DNA of 50,092 bases. It comes from a virus. Both the position numbers and the translations under genes were made by a program. Of this stretch, positions 7,914-47,191 are shown one piece after another. The number at the start of each line of letters is the position of its first letter. The first letter of the stretch is position 1. Under the pieces are notes generated by a model, which saw only the letters and a program-made list of their open reading frames with translations, made no database searches and had not been told where the DNA came from. The stretch spans positions 1-50,092 of the IMG/VR virus record IMGVR_UViG_3300031576_000068. One strand, 5' to 3'.

Positions 7914-8102
7914 ATGGATATGCTCGTTCCGGTCTGGGTTCTCATCGCCGTCGGCTTCCTCGCTGGAACCTTCACGGGTGCCTTCTTTGTACTCGTGCTC
8001 ATGGTTGCGCGCACACGGATCAGGACCGAGGTCACGAATGATCTGCTCGGGCTGCTCAGGCTTGTTCGGCCGGACGCCGGGCCTGAAATAGTAAAGGAGT
8101 AG
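7914..8102 (+). CDS. Small single-span membrane protein
   Basis: A 62-residue protein starting at ATG 7914 after TAGGAG. One long hydrophobic segment (about residues 4-33, PVWVLIAVGFLAGTFTGAFF) is followed by a basic and then mixed tail (RTRIRTEVTNDLL). It lies between the tail tube and tape-measure genes, where many siphoviruses encode tail-assembly chaperones by frameshift. No frameshift pair is visible here, and a membrane span is not expected of a chaperone. Function unknown. Confidence 0.65.
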   Translation: MDMLVPVWVLIAVGFLAGTFTGAFFVLVLMVARTRIRTEVTNDLLGLLRLVRPDAGPEIVKE

Positions 8103-8105
8103 GGC

Positions 8106-9791
8106 ATGGCCGAACGTGAGCTCAATATCCTGATCCGGGTCAAGGACTTCTTTACCGGGCAGTTCAAGAAGCTCGGCGACTCTGTTCGAGGCGCCAAAGT
8201 TCCGATCAAGGAGCTCGGCGACGAAGGCGAGAAGACGGCCGGGGTGTTCTCGCGACTCGGGTCGGCCATCGCCTCGCGCTTCGTGATCACGCTTGGCGAC
8301 GTGGTGAACGTGGCGCGTCGCGTGGTCGATGCTTTCGGGTCGGTCATCCGCGCGGCTGAGGAGTCGCAGACCGCGCAGGTACGGCTGAACGAGGCCCTGC
8401 GGCAGACCGGCCAACTCACACCTGCTGCATCCAGGAACCTCCAGGAGCTTGCCTCGACGCTCCAGAAGGAAACGGTCTTTTCGGACGAGGCTATCCAGAG
8501 CGTCCAGCAGCTCCTGATCCAGTTCGGCCACCTAGCGGTCGACCAGGTGCCCCAGGCGACGCGGGCGGTGCTCGGCCTCGCGTCGGCGAAAGGAATCGAT
8601 CTCACGAGCGCGGCCACCATCGTGTCAAAGGCCGTCGCCGGCGAGGCCTCGGCGCTCACGCGCCTGGGAATCCAGATCGACACGACGAAGCAGGGGACAG
8701 AACTCTACGCCGAGATCATGGCCCGGCTGATCCCGCTGTATGGGCAGGCCACGACCGAGGCGCAGACCTTCCAGGGTGCGCTCGCGCGCATCAAGAATCA
8801 GTTTGACGAGCAGCTCGAGACCATCGGCAAGGCAGTCGTCGGTAACCGCGAGTTCGCCGTCGCTCTATCGGGCATCGCCGACGCGCTGGCCGACCCGCGG
8901 CTTGCCACGGCGGTGGCGAACCTCGCGACAGACATCGCGAACGTGACGACTGCGATCCTCGGGCTCATCCGGGACGTCGGGAGCAATGCCGACACGATAG
9001 GCCGCGTCTTCCAGGTCCTCGACGCCGTGGCGCGCCCGAGCCTTGAGAACTTCCAGGAGGCCTTCCGGGCCCTTGAAGAGCTGACGGGCGGCTTCACGGC
9101 AACGGCCAGCGCAGCAGAGGGACTGATTGCTGGGATCGGCGCCGCCTCGGCCACGGCGGCCCCACAGGTGGACCGGCTCTCAGACTCGCTCGGGCGGCAG
9201 GCGGCGGCTGCGAGCGAGGTGTCGGCGTCGCTCCTTGGAGCGGCAGAGAAGGCGGCGAAGACGCTCGGCGTGGTGCTTGACGCGGCCAACGCCTCGTTCA
9301 TCCGGGAGGAAGAGGTCGGCTCGGCCATTCAGGCGTTCACGGTGCTGGAAGGTCTGTTCAACCGCGGCAAGATCAGCGTGGACGCCTACAGGGTGGCGCA
9401 GGACAACCTCGACAAGGTGCTTCGCGGCGGCACGCTCGATTCGATCCAGAAGGTCGTCACGAAATTGGAAGAAGTGGCCCCCGCTGCAAACGCGGCCGGG
9501 GCCGCCGCTGGAGCTGCCATTGCCTCGGGGATTGAAGCCGGAGCCGCCCGCGCCATCGCGGCTGTGCAAACCATCATCTCGGCGTTCCAGGCAGCGGAGG
9601 CGGCGGGGGCTCGCGCTGGCGACCGGATCAACATCGGCGGTGGGGGGACGCGGCTTGTTCCGCGGCATGGCGAGACGATCCGCGTGAACGGGAGGCTGGT
9701 CACCTATCGCGCCGGAAGTCTCGCACCATCTCAGCCGTCGCGCTTCTTCGATCACCTCACGACGCAGACTTCGATCACCTCGCAGAACTGA
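8106..9791 (+). CDS. Tail tape measure protein
   Basis: A 561-residue protein starting at ATG 8106, three bases after the preceding stop. It begins like many tape measures (ERELNILIRVKDFFTGQFKKLG), continues with long alpha-helices rich in A, Q, L and E (NLQELASTLQKETVFSDEAI), a hydrophobic middle (LATDIANVTTAILGLIRDVG) and an alanine-rich C-terminal helix (GAARAIAAVQTIISAFQAAE). It sets tail length; at the usual 0.15 nm per residue it would specify roughly 80-85 nm (inference). Position before the distal tail gene supports the call. Confidence 0.86.
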   Translation: MAERELNILIRVKDFFTGQFKKLGDSVRGAKVPIKELGDEGEKTAGVFSRLGSAIASRFVITLGDVVNVARRVVDAFGSVIRAAEESQTAQVRLNEALRQTGQLTPAASRNLQELASTLQKETVFSDEAIQSVQQLLIQFGHLAVDQVPQATRAVLGLASAKGIDLTSAATIVSKAVAGEASALTRLGIQIDTTKQGTELYAEIMARLIPLYGQATTEAQTFQGALARIKNQFDEQLETIGKAVVGNREFAVALSGIADALADPRLATAVANLATDIANVTTAILGLIRDVGSNADTIGRVFQVLDAVARPSLENFQEAFRALEELTGGFTATASAAEGLIAGIGAASATAAPQVDRLSDSLGRQAAAASEVSASLLGAAEKAAKTLGVVLDAANASFIREEEVGSAIQAFTVLEGLFNRGKISVDAYRVAQDNLDKVLRGGTLDSIQKVVTKLEEVAPAANAAGAAAGAAIASGIEAGAARAIAAVQTIISAFQAAEAAGARAGDRINIGGGGTRLVPRHGETIRVNGRLVTYRAGSLAPSQPSRFFDHLTTQTSITSQN

Positions 9792-16662: not shown

Positions 16663-16737
16663 CGGGACGTAGCGCAGCGGAAGCGCATCCGGCCTGGGAC
16701 CGGAGGGTCGCCCGTTCGATCCGGGCCGTCCCGACCA
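16663..16737 (+). tRNA. tRNA-Pro(UGG), CCA encoded
   Basis: The full cloverleaf is visible: acceptor CGGGACG (16663-16669) with CGTCCCG (16727-16733), discriminator A and encoded CCA; D stem GCGC/GCGC around a 7-base loop; anticodon stem TCCGG/CCGGA around loop CCTGGGA (16693-16699), anticodon TGG; variable GGGTC; T stem GCCCG/CGGGC around TTCGATC. Base 33, nearly always U, is C here. The gene begins immediately after the endolysin TGA, so it is probably cut from the late transcript. Confidence 0.92.
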
Positions 16738-18323: not shown

Positions 18324-18674
18324 ATGGAACTGTGGAACCGGATCAAGCGGATGTTCGGGCTCGCGGCACCGAAAGTCGTGGACGCCCTAGAAATGGCCAT
18401 CAAGTTTCTGGCGCCCTATGCGGCGCGGTTCATCTTGGACATGGCCGTCAAGAAACTCGGTGCCACGGCGAAACGGGAGCGGGTTCTCGAACGCCTGCGC
18501 GATCAGGCGGCCGCGGCTGGGATCAGGCTGCCCGACTCGATTCTGTCGCTCTCCCTGGAGGCCGAGTATTCGAGGCTCAAGGCCGAAGGGCTGATCCCCG
18601 GCAAGGATCCCGGAGCGTTGCTCGCCGCGCTCCCGAAGATCCGGAAGGCGCTGGCGACGAGGACTGGGCCGTGA
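18324..18674 (+). CDS. LLH-holin-like small protein
   Basis: A 116-residue protein at ATG 18324 after GGGGGAAG. A hydrophobic/amphipathic N-terminal half (AIKFLAPYAARFILDMAVKK) is followed by KRERVLERLRDQAAAAGIRL and LSLEAEYSRLKAEG, which resembles the C-terminal helix pattern of LLH-family holins (basic helix, GI-x-LP, then an EA-x-L helix). The stop overlaps the next GTG. Assignment is tentative. Confidence 0.5.
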   Translation: MELWNRIKRMFGLAAPKVVDALEMAIKFLAPYAARFILDMAVKKLGATAKRERVLERLRDQAAAAGIRLPDSILSLSLEAEYSRLKAEGLIPGKDPGALLAALPKIRKALATRTGP

Positions 18675-18979
18675 AGGACGCCCTTCGAGCCACCGCATGG
18701 TGGCTCCTGCGGGCGGTCATCTTCCGGATCCCGGTCGTCCGCCGTTTCCTGACGGATCTGGTGATCAGCGTCGAAGGGGGGCTATCCCCCGTCGGGTGCC
18801 TCTCCCGGGCCATCACGCAGGCCATCCCGGGCAACCACGACGATCAGATCGCGGCCGAGCTCGTGGAGATCCCCGCCGGCCAGTGGCTCAAGACCCGGGG
18901 GTCCCACCTGACCCTCCCAAGCGGCCGGACCCTCCTGGCTGAGTACCAGGCCATCCGGGAGAGCGTGCGGGGGGACTGA
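18671..18979 (+). CDS. Hypothetical membrane-associated protein, end of late operon
   Basis: A 102-residue protein; GTG 18671 overlaps the previous TGA. A longer in-frame reading from 17924 is a shadow. An N-terminal hydrophobic stretch (ATAWWLLRAVIFRIPVVRRF) precedes a soluble region. It is the last rightward gene before the convergent integrase gene, whose stop lies 38 bases further on; no clear terminator lies between them. Confidence 0.52.
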   Translation: MKDALRATAWWLLRAVIFRIPVVRRFLTDLVISVEGGLSPVGCLSRAITQAIPGNHDDQIAAELVEIPAGQWLKTRGSHLTLPSGRTLLAEYQAIRESVRGD

Positions 18980-19016
18980 GCCGTAGAACGTGGTGTTTCC
19001 GCCCCCATGCTCCCCA

Positions 19017-20738
19017 CTACTCAGCCTCGCGCCGCACGCCGATCGCCCAGCACCGGCCAACCTCGTGAGCCGATTCGAACACCTCACTGGGCAAAACGGC
19101 GAATCCGGCGTAGATTGCGGCCCCGAAGGTGCCACGGAAGGCCCGGCCAGGCCGCCCTGGTGGGCGCCAGGCTCGCTTGGGGAGCCATGCAGGCCCCAGG
19201 CGCCCACCCTTCCGGGGGAACGCGACCTGGGGCCTTTCTGCGCGTTTCCAGTCCACATGCGCCCGGTCCGGCCAGACGGCGATCCCCTGAACCATCTTCC
19301 GCGCCAGGTCGCGCGCCGCCGCGCCCGCCGGTTCCTCCTGAAGCATCTCCCGCACGCGCTCCCTGAGCCCGCGCACCCGCGCCTCGGACCATTCGAGCCG
19401 CACGCGCGGGCGACGCGCCTCCACCAGGGCCGCCTCCCGATCCCGCTGCGCCGCGCGCAACTCCTCGATCCGGTCCATGAGGGGGCCCGGGTCGCCCCGC
19501 CCCGTCTCGATCGCGCGCACGAGCCGGGCCACCTGCCCCGCCAGCGTCCCGATCTCCTGCTCCAGGCGCCGGACCCTCTCCGAGCCGCCGTTCGCCCGAC
19601 GAAGCTCGATCCGGTTGTAGGTTGCGACCATCCGGCGCACGCTCTCCGGAGTGAGCAGGACGTCGGTCACCACGCGCAGGATCTCCCGATCGAAGTCCGC
19701 CATTCGCACGCGCACCCCCGGGCACCCCTGCTTCCCCGCCCGGCGATTGGAGCGGCAGCCGTAGTAGGCGTGGCGGCTGGAGCGGCCCTTCCCCGTCTCG
19801 AGCTGGAGCGCCGCGCCGCACAGGCCGCAGCGCAGGAGCCCGGAGAGTAGCCCGCGGCCGCGCACGGCCGGCAGGCCCGCGCAGGTCCTGGCATCAAGCC
19901 GCTCCTGGGCGGCGCGCCACGCGGCCTCGTCAATGATCGCCGGGTTGGCCCCCGGGACCGTGACCCATTCCTCACGGGCCTTCATGTTCTGACGCCTGCG
20001 CCACCCGCGCCGGTTGAAGATCGCAATCCCGGCGTTCCTGGAATTGCGGAGAATCCCGAGAATCCCGTGACTCGTCCACACCCCGCCCCGCCTTGTCCGC
20101 AGCCCATCGGCTGAGAGCGCCTGCGCGATCGCCTTCCCGCCGAGCCCCTCTCCGTGAAGCCGGAACATCCGCTCGACGGTGGGGCCCTCGGCCGGATCGA
20201 TCTCCAGGCGCGCCTTCGGGTTCCCGGCTTCATCCTTCACCGCCACGAATCGGAAGCCGAAGGGAGCATTGCCACCGTTCGCGTAGCCGCGCCTGGCGTT
20301 CTCGATCATGCCGCGCAGTGTCACCCGCGAGAGGGCGCGCGAGTAGTATTCGTCGATCACCTCGAGGATCGCTTCTTGCAGGAACCCGCCCTCGTCGTCC
20401 TGGCTGATTTGCTGGGAGGCGTAGAGGACCTTCACTCCGCGGCGGTGGAGGACGCCCTTCATGACCACGGCGTCTTCGCGGTTCCGGGCGAAGCGGGAGG
20501 TGTCGTAGCAGAGGAAGGCCTTCACGCCGGGCGTCTCCAGGCAGTAGTCGATCGCGCGCTTGAACGCGGGGCGATCGGCCGTGCGCGCGCTCTCGCCGGC
20601 GTCCTCGAACACCCGCGCGATCTCGAAGCCCTGATCGGCGGCGAACTTCCGGATAGCGGCGAGCTGGGACGGTAGCGACAGGTCCTTTTCGGCCTGGCGG
20701 TCGGTGGAGACGCGGAGATAGGCGATCGCTTGCTTCAT
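19017..20738 (-). CDS. int: Large serine integrase
   Basis: A 573-residue site-specific recombinase read from ATG 20738 (a GTG four codons upstream is also possible). The N-terminal resolvase domain has the catalytic serine in AYLRVSTDRQ (Ser 11), plus CYDTSRFARNREDAV and RGMIENARRGYANGGNAPFG. The recombinase domain follows (HGILGILRNSRNAGIAIFNR). A zinc ribbon has Cys pairs CGLCG and, further on, YYGCRSNRRAG and GC. A long coiled coil (about residues 390-455) ends with a basic tail, as in phiC31- and Bxb1-type integrases. It integrates the phage by attP x attB crossover, and excision needs a directionality factor; a gp3-like candidate lies at 28120. Convergent with the late operon, divergent from pyrF. 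Confidence 0.95.
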   Translation of the reverse strand: MKQAIAYLRVSTDRQAEKDLSLPSQLAAIRKFAADQGFEIARVFEDAGESARTADRPAFKRAIDYCLETPGVKAFLCYDTSRFARNREDAVVMKGVLHRRGVKVLYASQQISQDDEGGFLQEAILEVIDEYYSRALSRVTLRGMIENARRGYANGGNAPFGFRFVAVKDEAGNPKARLEIDPAEGPTVERMFRLHGEGLGGKAIAQALSADGLRTRRGGVWTSHGILGILRNSRNAGIAIFNRRGWRRRQNMKAREEWVTVPGANPAIIDEAAWRAAQERLDARTCAGLPAVRGRGLLSGLLRCGLCGAALQLETGKGRSSRHAYYGCRSNRRAGKQGCPGVRVRMADFDREILRVVTDVLLTPESVRRMVATYNRIELRRANGGSERVRRLEQEIGTLAGQVARLVRAIETGRGDPGPLMDRIEELRAAQRDREAALVEARRPRVRLEWSEARVRGLRERVREMLQEEPAGAAARDLARKMVQGIAVWPDRAHVDWKRAERPQVAFPRKGGRLGPAWLPKRAWRPPGRPGRAFRGTFGAAIYAGFAVLPSEVFESAHEVGRCWAIGVRREAE

Positions 20739-20752
20739 GCTCAAACCCACGG

Positions 20753-20781
20753 TTGACTCGGCCCCGGGACCGTGTTAGGTA
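20753..20781 (+). promoter_or_regulatory. Possible promoter in the int-pyrF divergent region
   Basis: TTGACT (20753-20758), a 17-base spacer, then TAGGTA (20776-20781). The -35 box is good and the -10 weak. The spacer contains a CCCGGG core (20764-20769). The 20739-20849 gap is also a natural place to look for attP, since serine integrase genes usually lie beside it. Confidence 0.4.
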
Positions 20782-20849
20782 GTGGCACCGCCTTGTCAGC
20801 CCAAGGCCCGCCTGGATCGCCAACCCATCGTTTCCGCCGGGGAATCCCG

Positions 20850-21563
20850 ATGGTCCTCTCTCCCAAGGATCGGCTGATCTTTCCCCTCGATGTTCCCGAT
20901 GTCCGGGAAGCCCGCCGCCTCATCGAACTGCTGAAGGACGAGGTCGGGCTGTTCAAGATTGGGCTCCAGCTTTTCACCGGCGAGGGCCTCCGCGCAGTTG
21001 GTCAGATCGCCAGCGAGCGCCCCACAGGGATCTTCCTCGATCTGAAGATCTTCGACATCAGCAACACGGTGAGCAGCGCGGCCCGCCAGCTCCACGGGAT
21101 GGAGATCGCTTTCCTCACCTTCCCGGCGGACCAGGGGCGAGCGGCCCTCGAGTCCGTCGTCAAGAACCGTCCCATCCCGGGCAGCAAGGTACTCGCCGTA
21201 ACGGTCCTCACGAGCCTTGACGAAGAGGGCATGCGCGAGGTGGGGATGTCCAAGTCGGTCCAGGAGGTCGTTCTGCTGCGCGCCGAGCTCGCGCGCGACG
21301 CCGGGTGTGACGGGGTTGTGTGCTCCGGCCTCGAGGCGCGCGCCGTCCGCGAGAGGATGGGCCCGAAGTTCATCGTCGTCTGCCCTGGGATCCGACCCTC
21401 CTGGTACCGGGAACCCGATGATCAGCGCCGGGTCACGACTCCGAGTGAGGCAATAAGGAACGGCGCCGATTACGTAGTGGTCGGTCGGCCAATCCGACTC
21501 GCCAAGGATCCAGCCGACGCGGCGCGGCGCGTTGTCAGTGAGATCGCGGAAGCTCTCCAGTAG
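20850..21563 (+). CDS. pyrF: Orotidine-5'-phosphate decarboxylase (host-type metabolic gene)
   Basis: A 237-residue protein; ATG 20850 follows GGGGAATCCC and an in-frame GTG at 20772 is less likely. It decarboxylates OMP to UMP, the last step of de novo pyrimidine synthesis. All hallmark elements are visible: LDVP (Asp 14), LFKIG (Lys 36), FLDLKIFDISNTV (Asp 64, Lys 66, Asp 69 of the DxKxxD catalytic array), AVTVLTS, VCSGLEA, CPGIRP and the phosphate loop VVVGRPI. Length is normal for the family and no break is seen, so it is probably functional. It is an isolated cargo gene between the integrase and the repressor operon, with no other pyr gene nearby. Confidence 0.95.
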   Translation: MVLSPKDRLIFPLDVPDVREARRLIELLKDEVGLFKIGLQLFTGEGLRAVGQIASERPTGIFLDLKIFDISNTVSSAARQLHGMEIAFLTFPADQGRAALESVVKNRPIPGSKVLAVTVLTSLDEEGMREVGMSKSVQEVVLLRAELARDAGCDGVVCSGLEARAVRERMGPKFIVVCPGIRPSWYREPDDQRRVTTPSEAIRNGADYVVVGRPIRLAKDPADAARRVVSEIAEALQ

Positions 21564-21591
21564 AGAGCCCACGCGGAGCAGACAGCTTGAT

Positions 21592-21804
21592 CTAGGAGCT
21601 AACCCACCCGTGCTCGGGATCGGGGACGAAGATCATCGCCCCGACATGGGACGTCACCATCTTTCCGTCCGGGCCAGTGCCATGCCTCAGGCCCTCCCAC
21701 TTCACGAGCCATCCGCCAGGCACGCTCACACGTTGATGCGTATCCATCTGTGCCGCTGACGGCGTCGGCGGGTCAATCCTTTCCCATCTCAGTTCGACTG
21801 CCAT
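21592..21804 (-). CDS. Small hypothetical protein, end of the lysogeny operon
   Basis: A 70-residue protein; start ATG 21804 has GGAGGT six bases upstream on the minus strand, whereas a longer in-frame reading to 22005 lacks such support. The sequence (ELRWERIDPP, then VPGGWLVKWEGLRHG and GAMIFVPDPEHGW) looks like a compact beta protein. It is the most promoter-distal gene of the leftward group. No family is recognised. Confidence 0.58.
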   Translation of the reverse strand: MAVELRWERIDPPTPSAAQMDTHQRVSVPGGWLVKWEGLRHGTGPDGKMVTSHVGAMIFVPDPEHGWVSS

Positions 21805-22092
21805 TCTTTTACCTCCATGCCCCCCTCGGTGATTTCCCGCGCGCCCTTGCGTTCCCACTACGGTGACTTCGTTCCCCGCATACCGGTGTATGGATTGACG
21901 TTCCCGTTGGTGGACCAATTGTCGAGCATGGTAGAGTTCGGTGCTATCCTCATGTGCGGCTGCACGTAGGTTCCACAGGCTGCATATAAAACGAGGGTGC
22001 TTCATGGGGGGCTCCGCTAATTTGCTGTCATCTAACCATCAGCTACACATTCCACGCGGGCGTGCACGTATGGAATGCACGATATAGAAGCT
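21805..22092. other. 288-bp gap with an inverted repeat
   Basis: I see no supported gene here. CATTCCA (22048-22054) and TGGAATG (22071-22077) form a 7-bp inverted repeat just past the 3' end of the leftward gene at 22093. It has no T-run and so is only a weak terminator or processing-site candidate. A promoter for the downstream leftward gene could lie here, but no convincing -35/-10 pair was found. Confidence 0.4.
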
Positions 22093-22422
22093 TCAGTTCT
22101 CGGGCTTGAGCAGCGCTTCATAGTAAGCTCGAGCAACGGCCGCATATAGTTCAAAAAAGGCCGTGGTGAGCTCGGAACGTTGTGAGCTAGAGAGTCGTTC
22201 GATCCGCTCTGCATATGTTCCTTCCCCGGAAGTGAGCGCATCAATCTTATCCAAATAGACCGCGCTCCTATCTGGCAACGGATCGTCCGGACGCATTCTG
22301 AACGCAAGATTGAATTCGTTCATTGCAAATGCCAATCGCTCACCAACAGAAGTGTTAAGCGACATCAGGGACCTTATTGAGGCGCCAAGCTTCTCGTACT
22401 GATAGCCGTGTTTTATTGACAT
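22093..22422 (-). CDS. Hypothetical protein in the repressor operon
   Basis: A 109-residue, mostly helical protein, read from ATG 22422 (an in-frame start at 22470 is possible). Stretches such as YQYEKLGASIRSLMSLNTSV and SSSQRSELTTAFFELYAAVA have no known motif. The region is visibly more AT-rich than the virion genes. In temperate phages, genes placed downstream of the repressor are often expressed in the lysogen; an exclusion or immunity role is possible (inference). Confidence 0.55.
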   Translation of the reverse strand: MSIKHGYQYEKLGASIRSLMSLNTSVGERLAFAMNEFNLAFRMRPDDPLPDRSAVYLDKIDALTSGEGTYAERIERLSSSQRSELTTAFFELYAAVARAYYEALLKPEN

Positions 22423-22931
22423 CGAGGCCACTGCTCCTTCATCGTCCGCAGGATACCCGCCTCCGCCCACGCGAAGATCTGGTTGAGGCGCGTCCGCCGC
22501 TCGTCTTCGCTGATCGAATCAGGCGAGTGATGGTAGTCTCCGATCCTCGCCTTCCCCTCCGCCACTCGTGCTATCTTGCGCTGGATGACCCGGCAGCGGC
22601 CGCGCTTCAGGCCGTAGCCGGTCTCCCGTTCTATCCGCCCATGCCAGTCGAGGAACTCTTCCCACCGATCCGTCTTGTCAAGGGTGGCGAGAATGAGCGC
22701 GCCGATCGAGAGAAGAGCCTGCTTCGTCTCGCGTCCCGAGAGCGCCTTCCGGTTGTCCTCCATGAAGGCGAGCATTTCAAGAGAAGCCTCAAAACCCTCC
22801 CGATAGAGCCTGCCTGCGATCACCGCCTGCGCGAGGTAGAGCCATGTCGGATGGGCCAGGAGCGCGCGGAAGCGGGGAAGGGTGAGCGCGGTCGGGAAGA
22901 GTCCGCTGCGGGCGAGAATTATGGGAAGCAC
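22413..22931 (-). CDS. Hypothetical protein in the repressor operon
   Basis: A 172-residue protein. GTG 22931 is chosen because GAGGAA lies nine bases upstream at the end of the preceding gene; the longer frame to 23003 overlaps that gene. Mostly helical (FRALLAHPTWLYLAQAVIAG, SGRETKQALLSIGALILATL, then basic LKRGRCRVIQRKIARVAEG). It overlaps the next leftward gene by 10 bases, so the two are probably co-translated. No family is recognised. Confidence 0.58.
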   Translation of the reverse strand: MLPIILARSGLFPTALTLPRFRALLAHPTWLYLAQAVIAGRLYREGFEASLEMLAFMEDNRKALSGRETKQALLSIGALILATLDKTDRWEEFLDWHGRIERETGYGLKRGRCRVIQRKIARVAEGKARIGDYHHSPDSISEDERRTRLNQIFAWAEAGILRTMKEQWPRCQ

Positions 22932-22935
22932 AGAT

Positions 22936-23331
22936 TCATTCCTCGATGCTGAAACCCCACGCTTCACCATACCTAGCCAACTTCTTTCCGGAGTATCCGT
23001 CATAGATATTCACATGAAGCCCTGGCGAAACGCAGCGCTGGAGCGCCACCGCGATCATCTTCTTTTCCTGAAGGGTCGAGGCGTACCACTGCCGTGACAC
23101 GTACACGTCGTAGCCATCGGGGCTTACTTGCATGATGAAACCCATGCGCTTCATATCTTCGATCGGCTCGCGCCCTCCTGGAGGGCACGGCGTTTTGGTT
23201 ACCCGCGCGGGTGCGCTCTGTCGATTATCCGTGCTGTCGCTGCTACATTTCCCAATCAGAAGCAGAAGGGCAATTCCACCAAAGATGAGAGTCCCACAAC
23301 CAGGCCCGGTTTTCTTATCGCCAGTTGTCAA
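22936..23331 (-). CDS. Membrane-anchored protein in the repressor operon
   Basis: A 131-residue protein with a short basic start, one hydrophobic span (CGTLIFGGIALLLLIGKC, residues about 12-29), a flexible S/D/N-rich stretch, and a compact C-terminal domain (SPDGYDVYVSRQWYASTLQE, then LHVNIYDGYSGKKLARYGE). The start is a TTG 18 bases after the repressor stop, with the AGGAG of that region rather far away, so the exact start is uncertain. An anchor with an external domain, expressed with the repressor, is the classical layout of superinfection-exclusion proteins (inference from context). Confidence 0.58.
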   Translation of the reverse strand: MTTGDKKTGPGCGTLIFGGIALLLLIGKCSSDSTDNRQSAPARVTKTPCPPGGREPIEDMKRMGFIMQVSPDGYDVYVSRQWYASTLQEKKMIAVALQRCVSPGLHVNIYDGYSGKKLARYGEAWGFSIEE

Positions 23332-23348
23332 GAGAGTTTTCCCGTCTC

Positions 23349-24008
23349 CTATCGCCGTCTTCTCACATCCACCACCCGCATCATCTTCCGAATCTCAGAC
23401 CTCGGAACCACGATCGGCTCGTAGGCCGGGTTCACGGATTGAAGGATCAGCACGTCGCCCTTCGGGTAGACCGCCTTCAGGTACGCCTTCCCGTCCCGCA
23501 TCTGCACGAGGGCTTCATCGCCTGTTCTCACCCGCGCGAGCCTCGGCGAAATGATCACCACGTCGCCGTCCCGAAGAGAAGGGACCATCGAGTCACCGCG
23601 GACTCGGAGGGCGAAGGCGTGGGGATCCCGCAGGTCCGCATTCCCGGCCACGTACTCATCCCCACCACCGACGGGCAGGCCCTCGTCCGTCCAGGCGATC
23701 CGCGAGGGACCAGCGGAGACGTGGCCGATGATGGCGATCATGCTGGGATCACCGGCTTCCCGGACGAGGCTTGCTCCATCGTTCCCATAGAGAGCCGCCC
23801 TTAAGATCCCTGATGCGCCCAACTTTTCACATAATCGTCGAAGCAGCTTGAGCGACGGCTTTCCACGGCCATTTTCTATCATGCTCAACCAGACTTCCGA
23901 AATCCCTAGAGTTTCCGCCAAGCTGGCCTGTGATATGTCAGCCTTCTCCCGCGCATCGGCTAGGAGTTGCCCGAGCTTTTCCAAAGGGATCTGGTAGTCC
24001 TGATCCAT
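23349..24008 (-). CDS. CI/LexA-type repressor with S24 self-cleavage domain
   Basis: A 219-residue protein. The N-terminal HTH (about residues 10-66) reads SQASLAETLGISEVWLSMIE then GKPSLKLLRRLCEKLG. The C-terminal S24 peptidase has Ser 140 in VRGDSMVPSLRDGDVV and Lys 178 in GKAYLKAV, with a likely Ala-Gly cleavage site at 99-100 (HVSAGPS). It would bind operators to hold lysogeny and self-cleave on RecA activation, giving SOS-inducible induction (family knowledge). The ATG at 24008 follows GGGAG. Divergent from the Cro-like gene at 24160. Confidence 0.93.
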   Translation of the reverse strand: MDQDYQIPLEKLGQLLADAREKADISQASLAETLGISEVWLSMIENGRGKPSLKLLRRLCEKLGASGILRAALYGNDGASLVREAGDPSMIAIIGHVSAGPSRIAWTDEGLPVGGGDEYVAGNADLRDPHAFALRVRGDSMVPSLRDGDVVIISPRLARVRTGDEALVQMRDGKAYLKAVYPKGDVLILQSVNPAYEPIVVPRSEIRKMMRVVDVRRRR

Positions 24009-24081
24009 GAAACTCCCGCTTTATGTACGCCCACAACCTCCCCCAAACTCTAGGTTTTTTCAACCGAAAGAATTTATTTAA

Positions 24082-24118
24082 GTTTCCGCTTGACAGGCCG
24101 AAACGAAAGTCATAGTCT
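24082..24118 (+). promoter_or_regulatory. Rightward early promoter with operator-like dyad
   Basis: TTGACA (24090-24095), exactly 17 bases, then TAGTCT (24113-24118). GTTTC (24082-24086) and GAAAC (24100-24104) form an inverted repeat across the -35 box, a natural operator layout. It lies between the divergent repressor and Cro-like genes and would drive the early operon. Confidence 0.62.
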
Positions 24119-24159
24119 CGCTTTAACCTAAACTGCTGCTTTATCCCGAGGCTCACCGG

Positions 24160-24405
24160 ATGCGGACTCCCTTGAAAGCCTGGCTCGAAGAAAAGGCGGT
24201 CACGAACCGCGAACTGACGCGGCGCGTGAGCCGGATCCGAAAACGGAAGATCACCGAGCAGCGCATCGGGCAGATCGCCTCCGGGGAAAGTCCCTCGCCG
24301 TCGCTTGCCCGTGCGATTGCAAGGGCCACCGGACTTTCGGAATTGGATCTCCTATATCCGAAGAACGTTCCTGCCGTCCCGAAGCAGCCCGAGGCCCAGC
24401 CATGA
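24160..24405 (+). CDS. Cro-like HTH regulator
   Basis: An 81-residue protein at ATG 24160, first gene of the rightward operon and divergent from the repressor. It has an XRE-like fold: WLEEKAVTNRELTRRVSRIR, then TEQRIGQIASGESPSPSLAR and AIARATGLSELDLLYP. It would compete with the repressor at shared operators to favour lytic growth (lambda logic). The region between the two HTHs is 151 bases and holds the operator dyad described. Confidence 0.8.
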   Translation: MRTPLKAWLEEKAVTNRELTRRVSRIRKRKITEQRIGQIASGESPSPSLARAIARATGLSELDLLYPKNVPAVPKQPEAQP

Positions 24406-24566
24406 GCGCGATTTCGCTCCACTGTGATTGTGGCGCCGCGTTGATCCTGCGTGCGCCGGATGCCGACAGACTGATCGCCGCCATAGATGCGAGCGGTTGG
24501 AGGGATCGGCCCACGTCCGATCTCTGCCCAAAGTGCAGGGCAACTTATGAAGAGGCCACGCCATGA
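24402..24566 (+). CDS. Zinc-ribbon-like miniprotein
   Basis: A 54-residue protein from ATG 24402, overlapping the Cro-like stop. The pairs HCDCG and LCPKC, about 33 residues apart, would make a four-Cys zinc site. Function unknown; such small early proteins often act on host enzymes (inference). Confidence 0.6.
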   Translation: MSAISLHCDCGAALILRAPDADRLIAAIDASGWRDRPTSDLCPKCRATYEEATP

Positions 24567-24763
24567 CGCGCTCATTCGCGCCGCCCGAGCCGGGCTTCGT
24601 CCTCGTCTATCAGGACGGTCGCCTGTATCCCGTGGCCACGTTCGGCCCGCACGAGTTCGCCCGTGCTATCGCGGAGGCACGCATGCACCGGCTCTCGAAG
24701 CTCACAGACATCCGAAACAGCCGCGGGGTGCCGGTCTGGTTCGGCACGAACGGGGCGAATTGA
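24563..24763 (+). CDS. Small early protein
   Basis: A 66-residue protein; ATG 24563 overlaps the preceding stop. Compact (GFVLVYQDGRLYPVATFGPH, then FARAIAEARMHRLSKL). Overlaps the next gene (TGATG). Unknown function, translated as part of a coupled chain. Confidence 0.55.
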   Translation: MTRSFAPPEPGFVLVYQDGRLYPVATFGPHEFARAIAEARMHRLSKLTDIRNSRGVPVWFGTNGAN

Positions 24764-24963
24764 TGATTCGGATCAACCAGCACGGCCTCTACCGCTACGT
24801 CCCCGGCCCGGGGTTCGTGCTCTGGCAGCGCATCCCCTCAGCGCTGGACTTCCGGCGCCCGGACGCACGAATGGGGAGACGGTCCCCGGAACGGGACGCA
24901 CCTCCCCCGGCGGCGAGCATGGGCCCTCCGGCCGAGAAAGTCTCAACAAACCTTTGCGTATAA
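24763..24963 (+). CDS. Small early protein
   Basis: A 66-residue protein from ATG 24763. N-terminal strand pair (INQHGLYRYVPGPGFVLWQR) and a disordered Pro/Ala-rich C-terminus. A longer in-frame reading (from 24487) is a shadow. Unknown. Confidence 0.48.
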   Translation: MIRINQHGLYRYVPGPGFVLWQRIPSALDFRRPDARMGRRSPERDAPPPAASMGPPAEKVSTNLCV

Positions 24964-24976
24964 GTCGGGATTGACA

Positions 24977-25177
24977 ATGCCCCGAGTCGCCAGCCATGCC
25001 GCAGATCGAACCCGCGCTGCTCGCATCGAGCACCTGGGCGAGCCGGACCCGCAGGGCGAGGCGATGGACGACTTCCTCCAAACCCTCGCGGTGGACGTGG
25101 AAGAGGGGCGACTGTGCAGCGAGTGTTTTGGGGCGGTGAGTAATCACCGAGTTTATTGCGGAACGGTTAAGACATGA
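24977..25177 (+). CDS. Small Cys-containing early protein
   Basis: A 66-residue protein, ATG 24977 preferred over TTG 24971. The C-terminus (LCSECFGAVSNHRVYCG) gives a C-x2-C...H...C pattern typical of small zinc sites. The stop overlaps the HNH gene start by ATGA. Confidence 0.5.
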   Translation: MPRVASHAADRTRAARIEHLGEPDPQGEAMDDFLQTLAVDVEEGRLCSECFGAVSNHRVYCGTVKT

Positions 25178-25716
25178 ACGGCTTACAAATTCCTCAATTA
25201 CAAAACACACAAGATCGCGCGATCATGTTCGCTAGATTTTGGTCAAAGGTGAGAATTGTCGCCGCAAACGATTGCTGGCTGTGGTTGGGTTGTAAGGACA
25301 AGTCAGGATATGGCCGATTTCGCGCCCGCGCGGCAAGCGAGGTCCGCTACGCACATAGAGTTGCTTATACCATTGCTGTGGAACCAATTCCTGATGGCGT
25401 CCTAATTTGTCATCGTTGTGACAATCCGCCGTGCTGCAATCCTAGTCATCTGTTTATTGGCACGCACGCAACCAATAGTCTTGATTGCGTCGTTAAAGGA
25501 CGCAGTAATCACGGAGAACGCAATCCTAATGCTCGCCTGACAATAAATATGATCGAAAGGATCCTGGCTTTGTTGGCGGATGGTAAATCGCCGGTCGAGG
25601 TTGCGTCACTAGCGCGGGTGACTCCTGACACAATCTATCTCATAAGAGCTAAAAAAATATGGCGTAGAGAAATGCAAAGCATCGGAATGCTCACGCCGTA
25701 CCGTGCAGGGGGATGA
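25174..25716 (+). CDS. HNH homing-type endonuclease (copy 1)
   Basis: A 180-residue protein in a visibly more AT-rich stretch than its neighbours. Motifs: DCWLWLGCKDKSGYGRFR, then RYAHRVAYTIAVEPIPDGVL, the HNH core CHRCDNPPCCNPSHLFIGTH and a C-terminal HTH-like end (SPVEVASLARVTPDTIYLIR). It matches two other genes here (27632 and 35948). Such free-standing HNH endonucleases spread by cutting intron- or gene-less alleles (family knowledge). Confidence 0.9.
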   Translation: MNGLQIPQLQNTQDRAIMFARFWSKVRIVAANDCWLWLGCKDKSGYGRFRARAASEVRYAHRVAYTIAVEPIPDGVLICHRCDNPPCCNPSHLFIGTHATNSLDCVVKGRSNHGERNPNARLTINMIERILALLADGKSPVEVASLARVTPDTIYLIRAKKIWRREMQSIGMLTPYRAGG

Positions 25717-25719
25717 TCT

Positions 25720-25854
25720 GTGAAGCTGCCCACCCTCTCCGACTTCAAGGCGGTTCTCGCAGCGCCGTTCTCCTGCCCGTGGTGCAACCAGGAAGATGGA
25801 ACTCATTCGCCGGGCTGTCCATCGCTCGGGGACGAGGAAGAGGAGGACGCATGA
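25720..25854 (+). CDS. Zinc-knuckle miniprotein
   Basis: A 44-residue ORF from GTG 25720. It contains CPWCNQEDGTHSPGC, a compact C-x2-C-x6-H-x3-C site like a zinc knuckle, then an acidic tail (GDEEEED). The stop overlaps the next ATG. Too short for most gene callers, but coupled and motif-bearing. Confidence 0.55.
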   Translation: MKLPTLSDFKAVLAAPFSCPWCNQEDGTHSPGCPSLGDEEEEDA

Positions 25855-26117: not shown

Positions 26118-26277
26118 CCGAGAACAGGTACACGGCGATTTCAGGCGCGACGTGGACAGCCTCGCGCCCGTCGGCGGCTGGTTCGCCAACGTGATCATCC
26201 CGCTGTTCGCCGCGATCTCGTGGGCCGCGATCGTCGGGCTCCTGGCGCTCGCGTTCGCCGTGCTGGTGCGGACATGA
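26104..26277 (+). CDS. Small single-span membrane protein
   Basis: A 57-residue protein from ATG 26104 after GGAGAGGGGGG. Charged N-terminus (LRSDREQVHGDFRRD), then a long hydrophobic segment (FANVIIPLFAAISWAAIVGL and onward). The stop overlaps the repeat-protein start (ATGA). Function unknown. Confidence 0.55.
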   Translation: MLRSDREQVHGDFRRDVDSLAPVGGWFANVIIPLFAAISWAAIVGLLALAFAVLVRT

Positions 26278-27260
26278 GCAAGATCATCCGCGTCACCAAC
26301 CAGACCGAGTTCGAGAAGGCGCTGAAGGCGAATGGCTCCGAGATCCACCTGGCCGACAACGGGATCTACTCCATCAGCACCGGCGAACACCTGATCATCG
26401 TTGACGCCGGCTTCTCACCTACGGTCGTGGCGTGGGGGTCGTCGAGCCCGACGGTCGAGGCGTGGGAGTCGTCGAGCCCGAGGGTCGTGGCGCGGGAGTC
26501 GTCGAGCCCGAGGGTCGTGGCGTGGGGGTCGTCGAGCCCGACGGTCGTGGCGTGGGAGTCGTCGAGCCCGAGGGTCGTGGCGTGGGGGTCGTCGAGCCCG
26601 ACGGTCGAGGCGTGGGCGTCGTCGAGCCCGAGGGTCGTGGCGTGGGGGTCGTCGAGCCCGAGGGTCGTGGCGTGGGGGTCGTCGAGCCCGAGGGTCGTGG
26701 CGTGGGGGTCGTCGAGCCCGACGGTCGAGGCGCGGGGGTCGTCGAGCCCGAGGGTCGTGGCGTGGGAGTCGTCGAGCCAGAGGGGTTCCGTTGGAAAATT
26801 CGCAGTGATCGTCGGGCAGGCTCTGGACCGAGCGAAGATCAATATCCCAGGTCTGATCGTGCTCCCAACGCCCAAGATCGAAACGGCGTCCGATTGGTGC
26901 GACTACTACGGCGTTTCGGTCGAGGGGGACATCGCGATCCTCTACAAGGCCGTGGGGGACGATTACCGAAGCCATCGCGGTTTTCTCTATCAGCCGGGAA
27001 CGCGCGTCGAGTGCCAGGATTGGGACGGCGGTAAGGAAGAGTGCGGGGGCGGGCTCCACTTCTCACCTTCGCCCGGAGCCGCTCTCAACTTCAATCCAGA
27101 CGCGAAGCGCTTCATGGCCTGCCCCGTCGCTCTCGCCGACATCGTGGTCCACAAGAACGCCGAGTATCCCGCAAAGATCAAAGCACAGCGCAGCTGTGGG
27201 CCGTGCTTGGAAGTGGACATCGACGGGAACAGGATCGAGCAGAAGGAGAGTGCGGCGTGA
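26274..27260 (+). CDS. Repeat-solenoid protein with 12 decapeptide repeats
   Basis: A 328-residue protein from ATG 26274. Residues 1-49 form a short lead domain, residues 50-169 are twelve consecutive 10-residue units of pattern [TR]V[VE]A[WR][GEA]SSSP, and residues 170-328 form a separate domain with [39 protein letters not shown] and LHFSPSPG. Similar decapeptide solenoids joined to a CGGGLHFS-type domain occur in uncharacterised phage and bacterial proteins (recollection, not searched). The repeats would stack into an even solenoid displaying the variable residues. The stop overlaps the next GTG. Confidence 0.8.
26421..26780 (+). repeat. Twelve perfect-length 30-bp tandem repeats
   Basis: Exactly 12 head-to-tail units of 30 bp. 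Apart from the last codon of unit 12 (CAG for CCG), units vary at only four bases of the unit: base 2 (C/G, Thr/Arg), base 8 (T/A, Val/Glu), base 13 (T/C, Trp/Arg) and base 17 (G/A/C, Gly/Glu/Ala). Every variant changes an amino acid; no synonymous difference is present. Confidence 0.97.
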
Positions 27261-27631: not shown

Positions 27632-28129
27632 ATGAGCGGCATGACGCCATCGCAGCACGAGATCGGTTACTTCCTGTCTCGTTTCGATAAGCTGGACGCC
27701 GAACAGTGTTGGCTCTTGAAATCAACGGGGCATAGCAATTATTACGGCGAAGTTCGGGTAGGCGGAAAACGGGAAGGCGCGCACAGATTTTCCTATCGCT
27801 ACTTCTTCGGTCCAATTCCGGATGGTCTTCAAGTCCTACATCGTTGTGATACGCCGCCCTGTGTAAATCCTAGCCACCTATTTTTAGGAACCCAAGCCGA
27901 CAATATGATCGACAGGGATCGTAAGGGGCGTGCCCGCACGCCGCACGGCGAGACGGCCGGCCCATCCAAACTGACACCGGATCAGGTGCATTCAATCCGC
28001 TCTCTATTCCGTGAAGGAAACCTCAGCAACGCTGCAATCGGGAGGCGCTACGGAATTACGCGTGAAGCGGTTTGCCTGATTGGGCTAGGCAAGAATTGGC
28101 GTCATCTACCGGAGGCAACATGGCCATAA
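27632..28129 (+). CDS. HNH homing-type endonuclease (copy 2)
   Basis: A 165-residue protein; ATG 27632 follows GAGGATAAGT. Paralogue of the genes at 25174 and 35948: CWLLKSTGHSNYYGEVRVGG, GAHRFSYRYFFGPIPDGLQV, HNH core LHRCDTPPCVNPSHLFLGTQ and an HTH-like C-terminus (SNAAIGRRYGITREAVCLIG). It lies just before the RDF-like gene and overlaps its start by 10 bases. Confidence 0.9.
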   Translation: MSGMTPSQHEIGYFLSRFDKLDAEQCWLLKSTGHSNYYGEVRVGGKREGAHRFSYRYFFGPIPDGLQVLHRCDTPPCVNPSHLFLGTQADNMIDRDRKGRARTPHGETAGPSKLTPDQVHSIRSLFREGNLSNAAIGRRYGITREAVCLIGLGKNWRHLPEATWP

Positions 28130-29175
28130 AGATTTTGAGGAAGGGCCTGCCCGTCCTTGGCAAGGTGAAAATAGGCGGCTTGAATTACGAGAAGCCCTTC
28201 AAGGGCAAGTCGGACGGGCTCACGCACTACCCGCCGATGAAGTGGGACCACTTCAAGATTTTCACGACCGAGAAGGACCAGAAGGGTGCGCCGGTACTCG
28301 ACGGCGGGATCATGGAGCAGCTCGGCGAGAAGCCCACGGAGCTCGACATCGTTCTGCCCTTCGATGATCCGGAACTGTGCTTCCGGACGGAGCTCGGCTA
28401 CTACCGGGGCGGGACGCGCTACTGCTTCGGGGACGGCGAGAAGGCCTTCCGCCTCGAGGTGCGCGGAAAGAACGGCAACCTTCCCATCTACGGCGAGCGC
28501 AAGCCCCACCTTCCATGCGGGGAGACCTGTGAGGACTTGGTGTCCCGCCGGTGCAAGCCCTCTGGAACGCTCTCCTTCCTCCTGAAGCAGCAGCCCTTCG
28601 TGGGCGGCGTTTACGTTTTCAGAACCCACGGCTGGCGTAGCGTCGCGAATATCCAGGAGTCGATCAACGCGATCCTGATGGTGACCCGCGGACTGCTCGC
28701 GTGGATCCCGCTCAAGCTCTCCGTGCAGATGGAGATGGTGCAGCCCAAGGACGGCGGCGCCGCGCAGCTCGCGCCGATCGTGAAGCTATTCTTTCCAGGC
28801 TCGCCGATCGAGCTCTTGGGCGAGCGGAAGAAGCTGCTCGAGATCCAGGGACCGCTCCAGGCCGAGATCAAGCGTCTGGAGGCAGGGCTCGTGAATCAGC
28901 CCGCGCCAGAACCGACGGCGGAAGAGGCGGCGGAGATCGAAGAGGAGTTCTACCCGGAGAATGCGGTGGCTCCCACGGCCGCGCCGGGGAACGGTGACGG
29001 CGGCTTCCTCGACACGGCCGGCGGCGAGGCCCCGCCCGAACCGGAGCCCCCACCCGCGAAGAGCGCGGAGACGCGGAAGGAGTCCACCCGACGGGCCGCG
29101 CAGCGATCGGCTGAGCCGAAGGTCGCGCCCGCCCAGGACGAGCCGCCCCCCCTCGACGACGGAGACCTGTTCTAG
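28120..29175 (+). CDS. Recombination directionality factor-like protein (phiC31 gp3-like)
   Basis: A 351-residue protein at ATG 28120 after GGAGG. The pattern matches gp3-like factors: start IKILRKGLPVLGKVKIGGLN, then THYPPMKWDHFKIFT, LDIVLPFDDPELCFRTELGY, a Cys group (PCGETCEDLVSRRCKPSGTL), YVFRTHGWRSVANIQESINA and LLAWIPLKLSVQME. The C-terminal 90 residues are disordered and acidic/Pro-rich. In phiC31-type phages such a protein turns the integrase from integration to excision (family knowledge). The serine integrase at 19017 is its expected partner. The gene is in the early operon, so it would be made on induction. Confidence 0.85.
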   Translation: MAIKILRKGLPVLGKVKIGGLNYEKPFKGKSDGLTHYPPMKWDHFKIFTTEKDQKGAPVLDGGIMEQLGEKPTELDIVLPFDDPELCFRTELGYYRGGTRYCFGDGEKAFRLEVRGKNGNLPIYGERKPHLPCGETCEDLVSRRCKPSGTLSFLLKQQPFVGGVYVFRTHGWRSVANIQESINAILMVTRGLLAWIPLKLSVQMEMVQPKDGGAAQLAPIVKLFFPGSPIELLGERKKLLEIQGPLQAEIKRLEAGLVNQPAPEPTAEEAAEIEEEFYPENAVAPTAAPGNGDGGFLDTAGGEAPPEPEPPPAKSAETRKESTRRAAQRSAEPKVAPAQDEPPPLDDGDLF

Positions 29176-30333
29176 ATGAACGCCACCGACACTGGCCTCA
29201 TGGCCTTCAGCTATTCACGATTCAATACCTTCGACCGCTGTCCTCTTTGGTTCCGGCTCCGCTACATCGACCGGATTCCAGAGGCCGACTCAGCCCCGCT
29301 CGTCACGGGCCGGATCGCGCACGAAGTCGCCGAGGCTTACGGGAAGCACTGCATCGGGAATGGCGTGGCGACGGACTTTGCCTTCTTCGATGATCTCGCG
29401 CGCCGGGCCTGCTCGGATGCGCCGGCGGAAGTCGGGGCGGATCTCCGGGGGATCCTTGACACGATGCGGGACACGATCTCGTTCATCGAGGGCCCGGCGT
29501 CTCGGATCGAGGAGGAGCTGGCCTTCGATCGGGAGTGGCGGCCAGTCGCGTGGGACGACCCGGCCGTGTTCTTCCGCGCGAAAATCGACAAGCGGATGAC
29601 GACGGACGAAGGGGTCATCGTTTGGGACTTGAAAACTGATCGCCGCATTCCCCCTGCCTCCGACCTTCCGACGAATCCGCAGCTTCGGATCTACGCCTAT
29701 CTCGTCACCCTGCTCGACCCGGACGTCCAGTCGATCACCGTCGTTCTGTTTTTCGGGCGTTACGGTCGCTCGCAGTCCTGGACGTTCACCCGCGAGGAGG
29801 CGGAGAGCTACGGGAAGGAAATCGAGCGGAAGGCCGAGCGGATCGAGGTGGAGATGGAGTGGACCCCGCGGCTTGGGGAAGCGTGCCGGATCTGCCCGTA
29901 CACGGCGCGGTGCGAGGCGTTCCAGTCGGCCTACGCGGGAATGGATTTCCTCGTGCGCGACGAGGAGCACGCCCGCGAGCTCGCCGCGCGTCGCGAGGCC
30001 GTGGGCGCCGCCTACGATCTGCTCACGGAATCGCTCAAGGCCCACGTCGAGGCCCACGGCCGGATCGCGCTCCCTGACGGGCGCGTGCTTGATTTCGTCC
30101 CGGGAACGAAGGTGACGTTCGAGGACGTGCGGGCTGTCGTCGCGTTCCTCCGGAAGGAACTGGGAGACGATCTCGCGTGGGCGGCGCTGTCCACGACGAA
30201 GACGCAGGTCACGAAGGTGATCCGGAAAGCCAAGCGCAAGGACCTGATCGACGCCGCGCTCGCGCTCGGGACGGAGACGCCGACGACCACGTTCAAGATC
30301 GCGAAGAAGGGCGAGGAGGGGGAGGAAGGGTGA
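29176..30333 (+). CDS. RecB/Cas4-family PD-(D/E)XK nuclease with Fe-S cysteines
   Basis: A 385-residue protein whose ATG follows directly on the preceding stop. Motifs in order: FSYSRFNTFDRCPLWFRLRY (first Cys), VTGRIAHEVAEAYG (motif with His), FFRAKIDKRMTTDEGVIVWD then LKTDR (D...DxK active site), YAYLVTLLDPD, and ACRICPYTARC (three Cys, which with the first would hold a 4Fe-4S cluster). Members process DNA ends in recombination and defence. The C-terminal region (RVLDFVPGTKVTFEDVRAVV) is extra. Confidence 0.88.
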   Translation: MNATDTGLMAFSYSRFNTFDRCPLWFRLRYIDRIPEADSAPLVTGRIAHEVAEAYGKHCIGNGVATDFAFFDDLARRACSDAPAEVGADLRGILDTMRDTISFIEGPASRIEEELAFDREWRPVAWDDPAVFFRAKIDKRMTTDEGVIVWDLKTDRRIPPASDLPTNPQLRIYAYLVTLLDPDVQSITVVLFFGRYGRSQSWTFTREEAESYGKEIERKAERIEVEMEWTPRLGEACRICPYTARCEAFQSAYAGMDFLVRDEEHARELAARREAVGAAYDLLTESLKAHVEAHGRIALPDGRVLDFVPGTKVTFEDVRAVVAFLRKELGDDLAWAALSTTKTQVTKVIRKAKRKDLIDAALALGTETPTTTFKIAKKGEEGEEG

Positions 30334-31424
30334 ACCTCAAGTTACATCCGATCGTTCACCTCTTTCCTCGCATGCCGAAGGAGGAGTTTGACGAGCTGGT
30401 CGCGGACATTCGCGCGCACGGGCTCAGGCGCCCGCTTCTAGTTCACCACGGCCAGATCCTGGACGGGCGCCACCGATGGGAAGCTGCGGAGAAACTCGGG
30501 ATCGATTGCCAGACCGAGGAATGGGACGGGCGGGGCTCGCTTACCGACCTGGTGATCTCGCTCAACCTCAAGCGTAGGCACCTGAACCAGAGCCAGAAGG
30601 GGACGGTCGTTGTAGGGGCCGAGAAATTCTATGCGGAGGAATTAAAGGCAAACCAGCGCCTATCCCAAGGACGCGGGAAAAAAGGTGTGGCAGGAATGCC
30701 ACCCCTTATTCGAGGCAAAGCGCGTGATCACGCGGCCAAGAAAATTGGCGTGAGCCCTCGCTATGTCCAGGACGCGAAGGCAATCCAAAAGCGCGCGCCG
30801 GAACGGTTCGAAGAGATCAAGGCCGGGAAGGCGACCATCTCACAGGTGAAGCGGGACCTTTCTCGCGCAGATCGGATCGAGAAACTAGTCCCGAAGTCAC
30901 TTCCCCCAAGCGGCGAAGATCGGCGCGTCCCCCTCCTCCTCGCCGATCCGCCGTGGCGCTACGAACATGTCGTCACGGAGAGCCGTGCGATCGAGAACCA
31001 GTACCCGACCATGAGCCACGACGAAATCAAGGCCTACCCGGTGGCCCGGCTCGCAACCGACGATGCGGTCCTGTTCCTGTGGGCTACGAGCCCGAAGCTG
31101 GCCGAGGCGCTCGAAGTCATGGCGACCTGGGGTTTCACCTATCGGACCTCGCTCGTGTGGGTGAAGGACAAGATCGGGATGGGCTACTGGGCGCGGCAGC
31201 GCCACGAGCTACTCCTGGTCGGCACGCGCGGCAATCCTCCCGCACCGGAACCTGCGAACCGGCCCGACTCGGTGTTCTCGGCGCCACGTGGCCGACACAG
31301 TGAGAAACCGGCCATCGTCTACGAGATCCTCGAAAGCCTGTATCCGGAATGGAAGGACAACCGAAGAGAGGTCTTCGCGCGGTCCAAGCGAGATGGCTGG
31401 TTGTGCTTGGGTAACGAAATATGA
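30330..31424 (+). CDS. ParB-like domain fused to MT-A70 DNA adenine methyltransferase
   Basis: A 364-residue protein; GTG 30330 overlaps the preceding TGA. N-terminal ParB/Srx-like module: HPIVHLFPRMPKEEFDELVA, IRAHGLRRPLLVHHGQILDG, RHRWEAAEKLG. An HTH-like middle follows (HAAKKIGVSPRYVQDAKAI). The C-terminal MT-A70 domain has DPPW (in LLLADPPWRYEHV, near residue 207), FLWATSPKLAEALEVMATWG, SLVWVKDKIGMGYWARQRHE and LLLVGTRGN. MT-A70 phage enzymes methylate adenine N6 and can protect DNA from restriction. This fusion is common in phages (family knowledge). Confidence 0.9.
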   Translation: MNLKLHPIVHLFPRMPKEEFDELVADIRAHGLRRPLLVHHGQILDGRHRWEAAEKLGIDCQTEEWDGRGSLTDLVISLNLKRRHLNQSQKGTVVVGAEKFYAEELKANQRLSQGRGKKGVAGMPPLIRGKARDHAAKKIGVSPRYVQDAKAIQKRAPERFEEIKAGKATISQVKRDLSRADRIEKLVPKSLPPSGEDRRVPLLLADPPWRYEHVVTESRAIENQYPTMSHDEIKAYPVARLATDDAVLFLWATSPKLAEALEVMATWGFTYRTSLVWVKDKIGMGYWARQRHELLLVGTRGNPPAPEPANRPDSVFSAPRGRHSEKPAIVYEILESLYPEWKDNRREVFARSKRDGWLCLGNEI

Positions 31425-45766: not shown

Positions 45767-45776
45767 GGAGAGTCTG

Positions 45777-47126: not shown

Positions 47127-47148
47127 GTGGTTGGAAGAAAAACACTTT

Positions 47149-47178
47149 GAGAACACCCCGCGCCAGGCGGGGTTTCTC
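47149..47178 (+). terminator. Stable hairpin before the capsid gene
   Basis: GAGAA plus ACCCCGC (47149-47161, one bulged C) pairs with GCGGGGT plus TTCTC (47167-47178) around GCCAG. The T-run is short, so termination is likely weak. The hairpin lies 13 bases before the capsid start and next to its ribosome site (GGAG). Confidence 0.65.
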
Positions 47179-47191
47179 GTTGGAGAACATC

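Follow-up and report, generated by a model that had tools for sequence, protein, structure and literature searches.

The viral record IMGVR_UViG_3300031576_000068, a stretch of 50,092 bases that is referred to here in its entirety as the window, carries an intact gene of the orotidine-5'-phosphate decarboxylase (OMPDC) family, pyrF, in a circular phage genome. Phage-borne pyrF is rare but recurring, and the window gene is a real, long-diverged representative of a known kind. The explanation we favour, and consider rather probable, is that a complete temperate tailed phage carries pyrF as a stable accessory gene (a moron or auxiliary metabolic gene), whose OMPDC product would top up UMP. The features on which the argument draws are as follows.

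1 to 127, + strand: direct terminal repeat, first copy, 127 bp, identical to 49966-50092.
19017 to 20750, - strand: large serine integrase (Resolvase, Recombinase and zinc ribbon in Pfam; phrog_95, 320.8 bits).
20751 to 20849, no strand: gap of 99 bp separating the starts of integrase and pyrF, which are divergent, from the coordinates.
20850 to 21563, + strand: pyrF, OMPDC, 237 aa (open reading frame, family profiles, alignment, model).
21592 to 23331, - strand: leftward open reading frames 21592-22005, 22093-22470, 22413-23003 and 22936-23331, without family match.
23349 to 24008, - strand: CI-like repressor (HTH and S24 peptidase-like domain, from domain matches).
28117 to 29175, + strand: Gp3-like recombination directionality factor of the phiC31 gp3 family (PF18897, 110.1 bits, cut-off 23.6).
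41889 to 48448, + strand: terminase large subunit, portal, maturation protease and major capsid protein (family matches).
49966 to 50092, + strand: direct terminal repeat, second copy, 127 bp, identical to 1-127.

The record is taken to be circular because its 127-bp terminal repeat is exact and the reading frame at its end runs on into the frame at its start. Assemblers commonly use 127 as a word length as well, and the most natural reading of the record is that of a complete circular genome. It belongs to a tailed phage, with a tape measure, a head-tail adaptor and an endolysin present in addition to the listed head genes. Judging from its gene content, the phage is temperate with a phiC31-like integration module, since it encodes a serine integrase, a Gp3-like directionality factor, which is the presumed partner of the integrase, and an HTH/S24 repressor. 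This pairing of large serine integrase and Gp3-like factor is that of the phiC31-type module, whereas phiC31 itself is not known to carry pyrF. Given the integrase, directionality factor and CI-like repressor, pyrF is located inside a temperate phage genome and not in a host flank, as expected of an auxiliary metabolic gene. Elsewhere in the window, a ParB-like domain is fused to a phage DNA methyltransferase-like domain at 30327-31424 (phrog_21315, 238 bits), while the protein at 26274-27260 carries a short 14-letter repeat in many copies followed by DUF7666. A 992-aa protein in the head-tail block (2240-5218) has a signal-peptide-like start by eye and is without a Pfam match, and a single tRNA-Pro (TGG) occurs at 16663-16737, immediately behind the endolysin gene.

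The pyrF reading frame extends from ATG 20850 to the stop at 21563 on the plus strand and comprises 237 codons. Upstream, the frame stays open as far as GTG 20772, but the starts of homologues align with about ATG 20850. The protein matches Pfam OMPdecase with 158.7 bits and lies above the curated equivalog cut-offs of NCBIfam NF001273 (234.6 bits, cut-off 193) and TIGR01740 (162.8 bits, cut-off 92.3), so the first-pass annotation's description of an intact, normal-length pyrF in a phage genome is borne out; PHROGs returned no family for the protein. An AlphaFold2 model built from a 23-row alignment (mean pLDDT 93.3, pTM 0.91) has the TIM-barrel fold of OMPDC, its best PDB matches being OMP decarboxylases, with that of B. 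subtilis first (1dbt, TM 0.89). When the same model was compared to a viral structure library at E<=0.001, no named phage OMPDC was found, the only named OMPDC-type matches being giant-virus UMP synthases and OMPDCs.

The same annotation had credited the gene with the full catalytic set, a claim that holds for the tetrad Lys36, Asp64, Lys66 and Asp69 as it was numbered; all 90 aligned homologues have these residues and Asp14 (an alignment without the duplicate L066 and the terminase locus L083). Ser122 of the LTS motif, Gln192 and Arg213 of the GRPI motif are also retained, and the window protein matches 60 of the 65 columns in which at least 85% of 53 homologues agree (from 60 loci, after L040, L048, L056, L057, L059, L060 and L061 were dropped as pieces, interrupted or very distant). 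The claim fails at two near-invariant sites. Residue 71 is Ser in the window protein and Pro in all 90 other rows (P71S), and residue 92, at the end of the fourth strand, is Pro (H92P) where the other rows have His in 87 and Pro in 3. These substitutions could entail weaker or altered activity. A diverged enzyme with another task, such as a changed substrate or insensitivity to natural OMPDC inhibitors, is nonetheless unlikely. It would account for two changes at such conserved positions, and OMPDC-like proteins of small phages (L112, L123, L125, L127) are changed at the LTS Ser and some also at the Gln or His, from which it follows that phage members drift at active-site positions. Against it, the window protein retains Ser122, Gln192 and Arg213, and L094, L097 and L098 share Pro92, each being the sole PyrF match of its own genome. 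As three sole chromosomal PyrFs have Pro here, a missing His92 need not mean a dead enzyme, and His92 was for this reason not counted as PyrF-defining. The three genomes concerned (G270, G261 and G269, respectively) belong to one Desulfobacterota class. As a separate observation, the LTS Ser is replaced by His in 9 of the 90 homologue rows. Overall, the window protein shares length, fold, catalytic tetrad, Arg213 and Gln192 with cellular PyrF (NF001273, TIGR01740), from which it differs in being phage-encoded, in having Ser71 and Pro92 for a near-invariant Pro and His, and in showing at most 58% identity to any cellular PyrF found.

The location of pyrF between integrase and repressor, as first annotated, is confirmed by the coordinates. 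Its start is 99 bp from the integrase reading frame, which is divergent and begins at GTG 20750 or ATG 20738, and 111 bp from that ATG. The attachment site attP is usually next to the integrase gene, and here attP and promoters presumably lie within the gap at 20751-20849; an imperfect palindrome at 20756-20775 is conceivably an attP or operator. On the other side, the leftward reading frames at 21592-23331 separate pyrF from the repressor and are convergent with pyrF. Two further statements of the first-pass annotation found no backing: a scan of 18900-24300 for the possible promoter returned 0 sigma-70-like sites (shuffle mean 1.0), and for the gene's own ribosome site only a weak GGGGA could be seen, by eye, upstream of the ATG. 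Terminator matches around pyrF showed no excess over shuffles. A profile search of the window phage returned no PF00156 phosphoribosyltransferase, and no other pyr gene was found among the window reading frames scanned, a subset consisting of 30 and 10 further ones from the lysogeny region and elsewhere. The 30 reading frames matched only HNH, zf-His_Me_endon, VRR-NUC, HTH and tail or virion families in Pfam. The gene stands as an autonomous one in the lysogeny region of a temperate phage, with phage genes on either side and no host gene flanking it.

The origin of the gene was addressed by comparison with bacterial genomes. The closest class found, within the Desulfobacterota, yielded 24 full-length matches of 51-58% identity from 29 genomes. 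A search of the Desulfobacterota phylum, set around a Desulfobacteraceae locus, gave a match in 214 of 247 genomes, with 57% identity at best. Two other classes, of 55 and 63 genomes, gave at best 54% and 53%. A phylum search around an Acidobacteriota locus returned 0 of 149 genomes at E<=1e-55, a strict limit under which the result means no more than that this phylum has no match as near as those of the Desulfobacterota. In a tree of 60 rows out of 61 chosen, the window protein stands alone, next to but outside the Desulfobacterota rows (82/89), and in no well-supported set. Its placement is unstable, with a different neighbour group in each of three trees, one of which included viral PyrFs after 10 long or partial rows were dropped. 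The codon score of pyrF ranks 13th of 22 phage genes counting from the least typical, which is average for the phage, so that the proposed comparison of codon use finds the gene phage-typical. Best identity, lone tree position and average codon use together indicate that the gene was not captured recently and does not obviously stand out as foreign in this phage. Recent host capture, which had also been put forward, was rejected on the distance (at most 58% identity in the genomes searched). The near-identity to a host gene and host flanking DNA that specialised transduction would leave were likewise not seen. The gene was probably captured long ago from a Desulfobacterota-like host and has diverged since. 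That the present host is Desulfobacterota-like is a guess from PyrF alone; the closest integrase in the 247 Desulfobacterota genomes has just 37% identity.

These results bear on three rival readings. The main rival is that a host gene was taken up next to attP, in a manner resembling specialised transduction, and kept by chance with no benefit to the phage. The distance of about 100 bp to the integrase, the usual site of attP, agrees with this, as does a second phage, L110, with pyrF also near its integrase; however, a best identity of 58% combined with an intact frame and 60 of 65 conserved columns suggests long divergence without decay, and flanking host sequence is missing, leaving such a passenger with a modest share of the probability. 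Integration into or beside the host's pyrF, with the phage copy serving as a replacement that keeps lysogens prototrophic (or addicted to their prophage), is quite unlikely. In its favour, pyrF borders on the integrase and presumably on attP. Against it, neither a lysogen nor an attB turned up, and the gene is whole, has no host counterpart above 58% identity among those found and comes without a near-identical host segment. Host contamination or a chimeric assembly is highly improbable. Stretches of host pyrF do occur in public phage records, but circular closure, phage genes on both sides, the lack of a host neighbour and phage-like codon use oppose it, and it was rejected on the terminal repeat and the phage flanks. 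The 127-bp repeat, these flanks and 58% best identity support the view that pyrF is not a mis-assembled host fragment.

The favoured reading, that of a stable accessory gene, gains from the occurrence of pyrF in other viruses. An 11-row PyrF alignment compared to viral contigs found 24 IMG/VR contig loci with pyrF, and Lys36, Asp64, Lys66 and Asp69 are kept in all 23 loci counted (L108, a duplicate of L002, was left out). The first-pass annotation knew of no common phage pattern with pyrF alone; the gene is indeed rare, but these contigs, L110 and a published listing of viral auxiliary metabolic genes (PMC13288924), which in the passage available gives the name of the gene only, are precedents. 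PF00156 proteins occur in 7 of 25 pyrF records (G524, G526, below the cut-off, G529, G531, G536, G544 and G545), and 18 are without one, including the window, G525, G527, G533, G538, G540, G541 and G542. The large-phage contigs G524, G529, G531 and G536 resemble the window phage in having pyrF with intact catalytic residues, and differ in their size of 312-436 kb and in a PF00156 protein that may be PyrE. Five viral pairs were run for dN/dS, of which one was saturated and one identical; the remaining three, none including the window gene, gave 0.10, 0.23 and 0.06, which indicates that viral pyrF can be kept by selection. Counting against the favoured reading, no relative of the window phage was found that would give a dN/dS for the window gene or show its maintenance at this locus within its own lineage. 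Single-sequence scans of viral contigs with TerL, capsid, portal and directionality factor, which reach only close relatives, detected none, and neither did blastn of 18600-25800; the integrase scan gave one distant locus. In the tree, viral PyrFs are dispersed among cellular ones, with many weak branches, which suggests several captures of pyrF by viruses.

Several of the loci encountered are of a different nature. The phage of L002/L006 was considered as a twin of the window phage and rejected, being a different phage whose PyrF groups with Competibacteraceae PyrFs; L006 is the sole PyrF match of a Competibacteraceae MAG and may be either cargo of a phage or a host gene with phage genes around it. 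The small phage contigs L123, L125/L126 and L127, with pyrF-like genes at about 8001-8700, have Asp for the LTS Ser and keep K-DxKxxD, the Gln also being missing in L125-L127, and their proteins may act on another substrate. A PyrF search of INPHARED returned 10 records, with chromosomal neighbourhoods around H1, H7 and H9, the same neighbour gene in H8 as in H7, and no annotation for H4. Three phage-labelled INPHARED records have pyrF in plain host neighbourhoods, namely OR846607 (pyr operon), CAKLQH020000011 (rpsA/cmk) and MK416013 (lapB-pyrF-yciH). The first two appear to be host contigs; in the third, host DNA is at least still present at the end. A plasmid collection gave 45 records, all below 60% identity.

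The closest parallel is L110 (G525, 43,290 bases), which resembles the window phage in being a complete temperate phage with a 127-bp terminal repeat (the only one of ten records tested to have end repeats), pyrF near the integrase and no PF00156 protein. It is an unrelated phage with a tyrosine integrase, and its pyrF lies about 560 bp (~0.6 kb) from the integrase, the two being separated by a HicA gene and a 104-aa reading frame that is HicB-like by eye and without a Pfam match. A search for pyrF at the same place in related phages had been proposed; it yielded this unrelated case. The L110 protein has 72% identity to a Syntrophobacteraceae PyrF, which makes it a more recent capture than that of the window, and both PyrFs are nearest to Desulfobacterota. 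We tentatively entertain a broader idea, to which a lesser part of our confidence goes: a solitary pyrF by the integrase would be a convergent lysogenic-conversion cassette, with unrelated serine- and tyrosine-integrase phages having independently taken and kept OMPDC as a second UMP supply for lysogens.

In the favoured reading of a stable accessory gene, pyrF would be switched on in lysogens or at an early stage of infection, yielding an active homodimeric OMPDC that converts OMP to UMP. The last step of host pyrimidine synthesis would in this way be relieved, and the supply of UTP, CTP and dNTPs could keep up. Both roles suggested by the first-pass annotation, UMP supply and rescue of pyrF-deficient hosts, are hypothetical. 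In the parts of the literature available, pyrF has been named among viral auxiliary metabolic genes found in metagenomes (PMC13288924), which, like the window gene, is a virus-encoded pyrimidine-synthesis gene; the window differs in being a complete circular temperate phage with pyrF beside the integrase. Roseophages have been reported to enlarge the host pyrimidine pool via recycling or de novo synthesis, with orotidine appearing as a metabolite (PMC11981692). No account of a solitary pyrF beside a phage integrase was found in the open-access literature searched.

The window phage adds a complete, closed example to a thin record of phage-borne pyrF. If the convergent cassette were true, a subsequent loss of host copies would make the lysogen depend on its prophage. 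The gene pyrF is selectable both ways, through uracil prototrophy and through 5-FOA, and its role in the lysogen should for that reason be easy to test.
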